Positions 29,324 to 32,245 of a DNA stretch of 42,462 bases are shown in pieces. Each line of letters opens with the position of its first letter. Position 1 is the stretch's first letter. The position numbers and the translations under genes were made by a program. The DNA is taken from assembly GCA_020445745.1 (NCBI GenBank), contig JAGRGB010000082.1, positions 1-42,462 on the forward strand. Direction: 5' to 3'. This DNA is from Rhodocyclaceae bacterium (lineage in GTDB: Bacteria; Pseudomonadota; Gammaproteobacteria; Burkholderiales; Rhodocyclaceae). Under the pieces are notes generated by a model. That model was not told the DNA's origin. It ran no database searches and worked only from the letters and a program-made list of their open reading frames with translations.

Positions 29324-29595
29324 ACTGCCGTCGCGCCCATCGTCGGCCCTGCTGCCGGGGTCGCATCCGCGGCGTCGCTCGGTCCGCCGGGCAGCGATCG
29401 CCGGGACCGGCTGGCTGTCGGCGTGACAGATGGCGTCCGCCCGCAGCGCGTCGAATCCCATTGCCACGACGCCATTGTGACGGACTTCGTCGATCGCCAT
29501 GGCACGACACGTCTTCGCCCCGCCGTCGGCAACAGGGCGATGCGGACCGCGGCGCCGCGACGGCTGCTGTTCGGCACCGCGCCGCCGATGCCGAT

Positions 29596-29603
29596 GCTAT
29601 ATT
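29596..29603 (+). promoter_or_regulatory. Extended -10 like element before the TIR-like gene
   Basis: TGCTATATT-type sequence (TG-N-TATATT) begins about 40 bases before the ATG at 29637, an AT-rich spot in GC-rich surroundings. No good -35 is seen. Confidence 0.35.
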
Positions 29604-29636
29604 TGCGAGCGCCGAGGGGCGAACGAAGGGATCGAG

Positions 29637-31016
29637 ATGGCTGACGCGAGCTTGCGACCGGTGTGCTTCATGGTGATGCCGTTCGGCACCAAGGCGGTGG
29701 CACCAAGGCCGAACGGTGCGCCCGAGAAGATCGACTTCGATGCGCTGTGGCACAAGGCGCTGGCGCCGCTGATCGTCGAATTGGGCTACGAGCCGGTCCG
29801 TGCGGACCAGGACACCGGCGCGGCGATCATCGCCGAAATGCTCGAGCGGCTTTATTTTTCCGACCTCGTGATCGCCGACATGACCTTGCCGAACGGCAAC
29901 GTCTACTACGAGATCGGCATCCGCCATGCGTGCCGGCCCAGCGGCTGCCTGCTGATCGGTGCCGCATGGACGGTGCCGCTGTTCGATGTCAATCAGATGC
30001 GTCGCCTGTCCTATCCCCTCGCCGAGGGGGCGATCACCGACGATACCGCGGCGGCCATCCGGCAGGCGCTGCGCGACGGCGCGCTGCCGCTGGCCAAGGG
30101 CATGTCGCCGATGTACCAGCACATTCCCGGCTTCCCGGACGCCGGCAAGATCGATCCCCAGCGGGCATCGGCGATTCGCGGCCAGCTGGATGCCCTTTCG
30201 GCGTTTCAGGCGAGCGTGCGCGCGGTACAGCTGCAGCGCGACCCGGCCCGCCGCTGGGCCGCGGCCCTGGCACTGTGCGACAGCTACCCGGCCGCCAGCA
30301 CGCACTCGCCTGCCGTGGCGATCGAGATCCTGACCCTGCTCCGCGACGCTGCCGGCTGGCAGGAGAGCATCGCCTACGCCGATGCCTTGCCCGAGCCCAT
30401 ACGCCAGCTCGATCTGGTGCAGGAGCAACGCAGCCTGGCATTGAGCAAGACCGGCGACCCGCTGCAGGCCATCGGCGCACTCGAGGAACTCGTCCGCCGC
30501 CGCGGCGGCAGCGCAGAACGCTACGGCCTGATCGGCGGACGCTACAAGAAGCTGGCCGGCGAGGCGCGCAACGAGGGGGACCCGGACCTGGCGCGCGACT
30601 ACCTGGAACAGGCGATCCACCACTACGAGGAAGGCATGCGGTGCGATCTCAACGACTACTACCCGAGTTCCAACCTTCCCCGACTGTACCGGGCGCGGGG
30701 TGACGAAGGGGACGACCAGCGCGCCGCGGCGAGCGGCCATGTCGCGCTGATGGCGTGCCAGCGGGCCAAGATCAACGGCGCCCAGGACGAATGGCTGAAC
30801 CCGACCTTGCTGGGGCTCGCTTTCGATGCCGGCGATGTCGTCACCGCGCGCCGCCTGGTGACCGACGTGCGTCGCGAAGGACCGGCCGCCTGGAAGCTGG
30901 CGACGACCCTGGCGGATCTGGATCGCAGCGTGGAACAGCAGCCGGATGGTGCCACTCGCGAGACCCTCGCCGGGCTCGTTGCCACGTTGCGGGGCCTGCT
31001 TGCAGCCAAGCCCTAG
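29637..31016 (+). CDS. TIR-like/deoxyribosyltransferase-like domain with TPR (DUF4071) region
   Basis: A 459-residue protein. Residues 8-125 carry the fold signature CFMVMPFGT, RAD (56-58), a hydrophobic SDLVIAD strand and NGNVYYEIG with Glu92 in the position of the catalytic Glu of TIR and deoxyribosyltransferase-like domains. Residues ~200-450 are helical repeats matching the DUF4071/TRAFs-binding region shared with ASK1-type kinases: YGLIGGRYKKLAGEA, DLNDYYPSSNLPRLYRARGD, DEWLNPTLLGLAFDAGDV. Family members are proposed conflict or signalling proteins. The start has a weak ribosome site. It directly precedes another TIR-like gene. Confidence 0.85.
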   Translation: MADASLRPVCFMVMPFGTKAVAPRPNGAPEKIDFDALWHKALAPLIVELGYEPVRADQDTGAAIIAEMLERLYFSDLVIADMTLPNGNVYYEIGIRHACRPSGCLLIGAAWTVPLFDVNQMRRLSYPLAEGAITDDTAAAIRQALRDGALPLAKGMSPMYQHIPGFPDAGKIDPQRASAIRGQLDALSAFQASVRAVQLQRDPARRWAAALALCDSYPAASTHSPAVAIEILTLLRDAAGWQESIAYADALPEPIRQLDLVQEQRSLALSKTGDPLQAIGALEELVRRRGGSAERYGLIGGRYKKLAGEARNEGDPDLARDYLEQAIHHYEEGMRCDLNDYYPSSNLPRLYRARGDEGDDQRAAASGHVALMACQRAKINGAQDEWLNPTLLGLAFDAGDVVTARRLVTDVRREGPAAWKLATTLADLDRSVEQQPDGATRETLAGLVATLRGLLAAKP

Positions 31017-32103
31017 TCCGCTATTTAGCCGCTTCAACGGATTCTGCCTCGGCGCGTTCCTCGGTGGCGCCCAGCAGGCCTTGTCCGCCGCGCGCTATGG
31101 CGCTATCCGACGGCGCGTGCACGAATTCCTCGACGAGATCGCCATCGACGTCCGACTTCCTGGCCGGCAGCAGAAGTTCGCGGCGACCTATGCGGCGACG
31201 ATGGACCGGGTGATGACCGAATTGCGCAGTCGCGATGCCGAGTTGCACGCCTGCTGTGGGGTCGGTGCGATGGCTGCACTGTTTGCCGGCGGCTACACCG
31301 GGACGACGCCGGCCATGCGGCAGACCTTGCGCGATCGATGGCAGCCCGAACTGCAGCGACTCGGGCTGGGGCCCGCGGCGTTCGACCGTTTCGCCGGCAG
31401 TCTGGCCAGCACCGCCCGCGGTCGTGACACGGTGGCGATGATCACCCAGGTCTACCTGCTGCTCGACGACCTGCTGCAGCCGCTGGCCGCCGAAGCCGAC
31501 ACCTGCTTCGTGGCGATGCCGTTCAAGCAGCCCTATGCAGACTTCTTCTGCCGCTGGTACCGGCCCGCGTTGCAGGCGGCGGGTTTTCGCGCAATCCGCG
31601 CCTGGGGCGGACTGGCCGACGAAGAGTACTACCCGTTCATTGCAGCGCTGATCGCGCGCTGCGCGGGCGTGCTTGCCGACTTGTCCGCGCGGAACCTGAA
31701 CGTTGCCAACGAGGTCGGCCTCGCGCATGGCGCCAACTGTCCGACATTTCTGGTGATGGGTGTTCGCGCCGGCCCGCCGCCGTCGAACCTGGCCGACCTG
31801 CTGATTCTCCGCTATGACCGGCATGCACCGGACTGGCCGCAGCAGGACGTGCCACGCCTTGCCGAATTCGTGAAGCTGCATTGGCGACAATACGTGGACT
31901 CGCTGACGCACGACGCACTGATTCACGATGCGGCCCACCGATTGCTGCAGATGCTGCTCGCCGCCGGACAGCCGGTGCCGGATGCGGTCCGGGCGCTGGC
32001 ACGGGTCCAAACCGCGCTCGCCGACGATCCGGCGGACAAAGGCATGGCGCCGGATGCGAGGCGGCACGGCGCTGGCCCGGCCGGCCGAACGGCCCGGCAG
32101 TGA
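30946..32103 (+). CDS. Second TIR-like protein, C-terminal catalytic-type domain
   Basis: A protein of up to 385 residues of which the first ~24 overlap the previous gene in another frame; the true start may be later. Residues ~25-50 look hydrophobic (FNGFCLGAFLGGAQQAL), then a helical region to ~180. Residues ~185-290 repeat the TIR-like signature: TCFVAMPFKQPYADFF, a strand ending VLADLSARNLNVANEVGLAHG with Glu256 in the same place as Glu92 of the upstream protein. The pair therefore carries two diverged copies of one domain in opposite positions. Nothing was recognised in the N-terminal half. Likely cotranscribed with the upstream gene. Confidence 0.75.
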   Translation: MVPLARPSPGSLPRCGACLQPSPSPLFSRFNGFCLGAFLGGAQQALSAARYGAIRRRVHEFLDEIAIDVRLPGRQQKFAATYAATMDRVMTELRSRDAELHACCGVGAMAALFAGGYTGTTPAMRQTLRDRWQPELQRLGLGPAAFDRFAGSLASTARGRDTVAMITQVYLLLDDLLQPLAAEADTCFVAMPFKQPYADFFCRWYRPALQAAGFRAIRAWGGLADEEYYPFIAALIARCAGVLADLSARNLNVANEVGLAHGANCPTFLVMGVRAGPPPSNLADLLILRYDRHAPDWPQQDVPRLAEFVKLHWRQYVDSLTHDALIHDAAHRLLQMLLAAGQPVPDAVRALARVQTALADDPADKGMAPDARRHGAGPAGRTARQ

Positions 32104-32245
32104 TGCCCCGAACCCACCGCAGAAGCGATGGCGGCGTCGGTCGGGCACTCGTCCCAGGGGCGTTGCCTGACGGCGGATGATCGACCGTTCCTGTGCGCCA
32201 CGCGGCTGTCGACAAACGCCGGGGTACCCGTGGTCGCCCGATGCT

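Follow-up and report, generated by a model that had tools for sequence, protein, structure and literature searches.

Burroughs and Aravind (J Bacteriol 2020) reportedly described the TPR-S domain as one that is predicted to sense signals derived from NAD and that was taken up into the ASK signalosome. Bacterial DrHyd-TPR-S proteins combine this domain with a nucleoside-hydrolase/TIR-like (DrHyd) domain. At the loci scanned here they pair with SLATT, patatin, TIR, trypsin, and nSTAND proteins, and no measured activity of any DrHyd-TPR-S protein was found in the portions of the literature searched. In Thoeris systems, as described in two papers (PMC9503650, PMC11204291), the TIR domain of ThsB makes a signal and ThsA is the receiver.

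A pair of overlapping genes in a 42,462-nucleotide stretch of DNA from a Rhodocyclaceae bacterium (hereafter the window) shares features with each of these systems. Gene 1 resembles the N-terminal half of MAP3K5 of the ASK signalosome in its TPR-S region and in a profile match over part of both of its domains, and differs from ASK1 in lacking a kinase and in having a glutamate where ASK1 has a histidine. Its N-terminal domain belongs to the same domain family as DNPH1/Rcl and the nucleoside 2-deoxyribosyltransferases (PF05014) and shares an aligned glutamate with them, although gene 1 itself fails to match PF05014 at E ≤ 0.1 and has Met68 at the position of a second catalytic aspartate. Gene 2 is unlike the effectors at the DrHyd-TPR-S loci that were scanned. 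Thoeris (a ThsB TIR protein plus a SIR2-SLOG or TM-macro ThsA) offers a working analogy, in that two genes would again combine a signal-making TIR-class domain with a fused receiver; neither gene is a Thoeris component, as no Pfam match to TIR, SIR2, SLOG, or macro domains is present in gene 1 or gene 2 at E ≤ 1 (for gene 2 also at E ≤ 10), and a weak hit of gene 1 to the PADLOC 'TIR effector' model (E 0.0027 with the whole protein, 3.4e-4 with the domain) is the only such sign. The features of the locus are as follows.

29330..32243, no strand assigned: segment of the window with a counterpart in the congener G003 (locus L030), approximate edges; replaced by ~130 nt in the congener G004 (L053)
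29637..31016, + strand: gene 1, DrHyd-TPR-S protein, 459 aa (Pfam TPR-S, ASK1 match of family profile A5, dN/dS 0.19)
29664..30128, + strand: DrHyd/TIR-like domain of gene 1, ~residues 10-164 (RAD 55-57, Asp81, Asn88, Glu92, Phe116-Asp117)
30357..30686, + strand: TPR-S region of gene 1, PF20308, residues 241-350 (Pfam and structure search)
30991..30999, + strand: GGGG (GAGG in L030) and 5-nt spacer 5' of the proposed TTG start, read from the sequence
31000..32103, + strand: gene 2, 367 aa, helical N half and divergent DrHyd-like domain, probable 17-nt overlap with gene 1
31000..31491, + strand: N-terminal region of gene 2, residues 1-164, without Pfam or NCBIfam matches and without a clear transmembrane segment; modelled as helical at low confidence
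31498..31872, + strand: divergent DrHyd-like domain of gene 2, ~residues 167-291 (Glu238, Asp227, and Asn234 kept; RAW, NE, and PSN for RAD, YE, and PFD)

Gene limits, selection, and flanking genes

Both open reading frames that an earlier note on this DNA had placed here were found. Gene 1 extends from the ATG at 29637 to the TAG at 31016. Gene 2 probably starts at the TTG at 31000 and not at the ATG at 30946, because the TTG is kept in L030 (the only close relative), GGGG or GAGG lies five bases upstream, and substitutions relative to L030 switch from third positions of the gene 1 frame (block 30927-31016) to third positions of the gene 2 frame (31017-31106). If this start is right, the genes probably overlap by 17 nt and not by the 71 nt that followed from the earlier note, whose Glu256 becomes Glu238; the overlap itself and the motifs around this residue (CFVAMPF, NVANEVGLAHG) are present as described.

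With L030 as reference, dN/dS is 0.19 for gene 1 (459 codons), 0.20 for gene 2 (343 codons; N half 0.24, C half 0.17), and 0.16 for the neighbouring serC-like gene, ratios which indicate that gene 1 and gene 2 encode real proteins and are more than chance open reading frames. The two genes are inherited together and evolve under purifying selection; conservation is lost over roughly the last 30 residues of gene 2.

The pair sits in the modA-serC interval. A Pfam scan of five flanking genes detected no defence family. It identified a solute-binding protein and a permease, which we take to be molybdate-type, as well as a ricin-B-type lectin and a serA-like 2-hydroxyacid dehydrogenase; the flanking protein named serC-like here has no Pfam match at 1e-3. 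No effector of a known type was found beside gene 1, since Pfam recognises nothing in gene 2 and none of the flanking genes scanned encodes an effector. The lectin (PF14200; 35117-36073 of the window), downstream of the serA-like gene, has similar repeated segments and a secreted-looking start.

Gene 1 as a DrHyd-TPR-S protein

Gene 1 contains the motifs CFMVMPFG, RAD, and NVYYEIG with Glu92 that were listed for it before, with RAD at residues 55-57 rather than 56-58. The helical region earlier attributed to DUF4071/TRAFs-binding proteins matches TPR-S (PF20308) at E=1.4e-17, with 64.6 bits against a Pfam cut-off of 27.6; no DUF4071/MAP3K_TRAF_bd match is listed for gene 1 in the Pfam scan, and 'TRAFs-binding domain-containing' is the annotation of many of its plasmid relatives. 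Pfam does not recognise the N-terminal domain by itself. Among the 14 relatives that make up profile A7, five match PF05014 at E ≤ 0.1 (best 2.9e-5) and all 14 match the PADLOC 'TIR effector' model at E ≤ 0.01. The profile matches Rcl/DNPH1 (E=5e-6), followed by the CAP12 TIR domain (6.4e-4) and nucleoside deoxyribosyltransferase (NDT; 0.018), so that these are the closest relatives of known structure for the DrHyd domain, and the earlier assignment to a TIR/deoxyribosyltransferase-like class is borne out. The YElG of the A7 profile aligns with the YELG of Rcl, placing the conserved glutamate of the family on a glutamate that we take to be catalytic in Rcl. Gene 1 has Met68 at the position aligned to what is presumably the second catalytic aspartate of DNPH1, and the chemistry is therefore not transferable from DNPH1. 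The DrHyd part of the gene 1 structure model is of poor quality.

Profile A5, a full-length profile of seven relatives, matches human ASK1 (8qgy, E=1.2e-13; 5ulm, E=6.7e-12). The match to 8qgy spans profile positions 60-319 of 450, corresponding to part of the DrHyd domain and part of TPR-S, and ASK1 has a histidine at the position aligned to the bacterial glutamate. Because TPR-S scores above its cut-off, behind an N-terminal DrHyd domain with the conserved glutamate, and because of the A7 and A5 profile matches, gene 1 is classified by homology as a DrHyd-TPR-S protein and corresponds, in bacteria, to part of the N-terminal half of ASK1. Gene 1 alone would be ordinary; its type has already been described.

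Gene 2: a divergent DrHyd-like domain behind an orphan region

The earlier note had seen the same domain signature in both proteins. The C-terminal domain of gene 2 is homologous to DrHyd (hhalign of A4 versus A7, probability 99%, E=2.8e-18; best match outside the genus, E=2e-16), but it does not simply duplicate the gene 1 enzyme. The comparison was based on an alignment of 42 non-redundant DrHyd domains with 43 conserved columns, from which nine of 51 domains (the L030 copies included) had been dropped for being at least 75% identical to another, and from which L046 was excluded as its match looked false. Since the domains were gathered by a motif pattern, the full conservation of N88, E92, and G94 is given by construction; the conservation of F116, D117, Y126, D57, and I64 is independent of the pattern. 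Gene 2 is the most deviant of the 42 domains, differing at 21 of the 43 conserved columns (0 to 16 in the other 41; nine in gene 1), and thus departs from the near-invariant motifs of a catalytic DrHyd domain. Among the replaced positions, the Asp of RAD (kept in 80% of the other 41) is Trp, the aromatic residue preceding the glutamate (88%) is Asn, a conserved Ile (95%) is Tyr, and the Phe and Asp of PFD (100% and 98%) are Ser and Asn. Gene 2 of L030 carries identical replacements, indicating that they are maintained and not noise. The argument from lost residues is indirect: with Glu238, Asp227, and Asn234 retained, gene 2 may still be catalytic and act on a different substrate.

The N half of gene 2 has no similarity to the DrHyd-TPR-S profile, and the alignment of gene 2 with the L131 DrHyd protein is limited to the C-terminal domain. 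The structure model (mean pLDDT 42, from a shallow two-sequence alignment) is helical in the N half. Known domains were rejected for this region: Pfam returned no match for gene 2 at E ≤ 10, NCBIfam returned none for the N half at E ≤ 1, and PHROG matches were weak (E 0.32-0.36 only); the single PADLOC match, also weak (E 0.039), lies in the C half. A SLATT or other pore-forming effector was likewise considered and rejected, as the two transmembrane helices expected of it are not seen by hydropathy, which reveals no clear transmembrane segment anywhere in gene 2 (highest 19-residue Kyte-Doolittle mean 1.26 in the N half, 1.66 in that of L030, and 1.57 in the C half, versus 2.6 in a SLATT protein). 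Besides the own genome, weak matches to the N half occur in seven of 399 genomes of the order and in 11 of 398 of the phylum (E 1.5e-4 to 0.009). Four of these 18 loci (L055, L056, L062, and L064) were inspected; two matches lie in frames antisense to apparent genes and two in ABC-permease-like genes; L063 matches like L062. All 18 are treated as chance matches, which for the 14 uninspected loci is an assumption. By these searches, the first ~160 residues of gene 2 are without a credible relative outside one congener.

Genomic neighbourhoods of gene 1 relatives

The association with conflict systems proposed in the earlier note holds for the relatives of gene 1, which often adjoin conflict-type genes. 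At 15 relative loci, neighbours chosen by eye, without a random-gene control, were scanned with Pfam, and a conflict-type neighbour above the cut-off was found at 11. These neighbours comprise SLATT (L074, L076, L080, and L129, of which L076 and L080 are closely related loci), patatin (L074, L075, and L040), a divergently placed TIR gene (L085), CAP12-TIR and an MS channel (L128), trypsin with TPR-S (L037), nSTAND-WD40 (L075 and L042), and TPR-S with a cNMP-binding domain (L134); L040 and L042 represent other DrHyd-TPR clades of a 23-row tree. Three loci have neighbours below the cut-off only (TIR_2 at L035 and L127, HATPase at L036), and at L034 the neighbours are a 5'-nucleotidase and an AraC-type regulator.

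The Rhizobium plasmid relative (L074) has a SLOG-like gene 12 nt upstream, with SLATT and, farther away, patatin downstream, and the Rhodococcus plasmid relative (L075) has a SLOG-like gene overlapping it downstream (own ORF call) and fused to patatin. The label 'SLOG-like' denotes a Pfam YAcAr match below the cut-off, and a PDB profile search placed esterases (E 0.012) above DprA (E 0.27). These plasmid loci thus resemble the present pair in having a partner with a second, probably Rossmann-type nucleotide domain, and differ in that this domain is SLOG-like and accompanied by patatin or SLATT there, whereas gene 2 joins a DrHyd-like domain to an uncharacterised region.

Several relative loci have further features of note. 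The dense cluster of nucleotide-signal-type genes at L074:3873-13080 (Rhizobium leguminosarum plasmid) contains SLOG-like, split DrHyd-TPR-S, SLATT, and patatin genes and a second DrHyd protein annotated DUF4071; the start of a further protein of the cluster, with no Pfam match at 1e-3, presumably resembles DUF4062. At L037:5255-8133, a DrHyd-TPR-S gene overlaps by 4 nt (own ORF call) a gene for a TPR-S-trypsin-like protease, in what looks like a matched sensor-protease pair, and at L134:5157-7915 a separate DrHyd gene is followed directly by a TPR-S/SLOG-like/cyclic-nucleotide-binding fusion. At L076:1463-7335 and at L080 (Agrobacterium and Rhizobium plasmids), DrHyd-TPR-S and SLATT genes lie near a ThsB-type TIR gene, a TIR protein that matches TGT weakly, and genes with the annotations DNA lyase and 7-cyano-7-deazaguanine synthase. 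The own genome (G000) encodes other DrHyd-domain proteins on C30, C206, and C137 (L050, L051, and L135), the one on C206 adjoining a TIR-NACHT gene. On the P2-like phage-plasmid pESL4.2 of Pantoea dispersa (L073:4947-5822), a DrHyd-domain protein is encoded by the single gene between the CI repressor and the integrase; the cI-integrase interval is a defence hotspot of P2-related phages (PMC9122126).

Distribution and probable horizontal transfer

The exact gene pair was found in one genus only. Of the six genus genomes, the own one and G003 have gene 2, with gene 1 in a closely similar copy (79%), and in a survey of 385 family genomes these two were again the only ones found to have a full-length gene 2. 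The recurrence asked about in the earlier note was seen in one other genome, a congener, and the scanned flanking genes of the window include no defence family. G004 lacks the pair at this site: its modA-like and serC-like genes are ~130 nt apart, versus a 2.9 kb segment here, and no match to the serC-like gene was found in the other three of the six genomes.

Relatives of gene 1 at E ≤ 1e-3 are more widespread, occurring in 30 of 150 family genomes and in 64 of 72,556 plasmid records (17 of which cover at least 80% of gene 1, the others being partial). The nearest fetched relatives are plasmid-borne, at 46% in Rhizobium, where the gene is split into two ORFs, and at 43-44% in Rhodococcus, while near-full-length matches in the own family reach 31-36% and some short ones 39-42%. 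In the tree of 23 rows, gene 1 and the two plasmid genes form a four-row clade with support of 100/100. The greater closeness of the plasmid relatives and the support for this clade point to horizontal transfer.

Proposed function and alternatives

With middling confidence, the pair is proposed to be a two-gene accessory module of the nucleotide-signal type, in which gene 1 is the signal side and gene 2 its dedicated partner. The DrHyd domain of gene 1 would probably cleave the N-glycosidic bond of a nucleotide or NAD, thereby making or titrating a small-molecule signal, and the TPR-S scaffold would sense a trigger or ligand. The degenerate DrHyd-like domain of gene 2 would most likely be a ligand- or protein-binding receiver, and its N half the output or effector. 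Retention of RAD, N-x-x-Y-E, and Phe-Asp in gene 1, together with the altered site of gene 2, makes it the simplest model that gene 1 produces or passes on a nucleotide- or NAD-derived signal, which gene 2 would receive and act on. We infer the catalysis, the signal, the direction of signalling, the effector role, and any phage defence by the pair, and as no credible structure of gene 2 is available, the N half could have a role different from that of an effector. Counting in favour of a signal module are the TPR-S, ASK1, and DNPH1 matches, the homology of the gene 2 domain to DrHyd despite its being the most deviant, the dN/dS of ~0.2, the overlap, the joint presence and absence of the genes, the conflict-type neighbours of gene 1 relatives, and the SLOG-like genes beside the two nearest plasmid relatives; counting against it are the lack of a defence family in the flanking genes, the limitation of the pair to one genus, and the four of 15 relative loci without an above-cut-off conflict-type neighbour. 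A more specific version would be an immune circuit that follows Thoeris logic with one domain family on both sides: the messenger, derived from a nucleotide, would come from an ASK1-type DrHyd-TPR-S enzyme, and its receptor would be a degenerate copy of that enzyme's domain, joined to a helical effector of a new kind. This version is conceivable, if rather doubtful.

Other arrangements of the same two proteins would account for part of the evidence. The roles could be reversed or toxin-antitoxin-like, gene 2 being the enzyme or toxin and gene 1 a TPR-S regulator or neutraliser; this is unlikely, for while the overlap, the co-inheritance, and the Glu238, Asp227, and Asn234 of gene 2 are compatible with it, and the ASK1 histidine at the aligned glutamate implies that DrHyd-TPR-S proteins can be non-catalytic scaffolds, the conserved columns are kept at 34 of 43 positions in gene 1 and at only 22 of 43 in gene 2. 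The loss of several conserved positions in gene 2 also argues against the possibility that both proteins are active nucleotide salvage or detoxification enzymes (DNPH1/NDT-like), co-expressed for metabolism and not for signalling. That DNPH1/Rcl, then CAP12 TIR and NDT, are the best solved domain relatives and that the scanned flanking genes are transport- and metabolism-like would fit such enzymes, yet the TPR-S fusion and ASK1 relationship of gene 1, the effector-type neighbours of its relatives, and the patchy presence of the pair do not, and this explanation appears improbable. Equally improbable is a stand-alone accessory role for gene 1 with gene 2 as a passenger of unrelated, possibly decaying function: the many different neighbours of gene 1 relatives, the nearly orphan status of gene 2, and its unconserved last ~30 residues would be expected in that case, but gene 2 is constrained to a similar degree as gene 1 (dN/dS 0.20 over 343 codons) and shares its pattern of presence and absence.

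The signal module proposed above is only partly the undescribed module suggested in the earlier note, since the kind of protein encoded by gene 1 is known; what is new is its pairing with a degenerate second DrHyd domain on an orphan region. No description of this gene pair was found in the full-text literature searched, a body of text to which most subscription journals do not belong. The sensing half of ASK1 has plausible bacterial relatives in the DrHyd-TPR-S proteins, and a minimal pair of overlapping genes such as this one provides a small, clonable test case for the product of the DrHyd domain and the trigger of TPR-S, in which gene 2 may represent a new type of receptor-effector.
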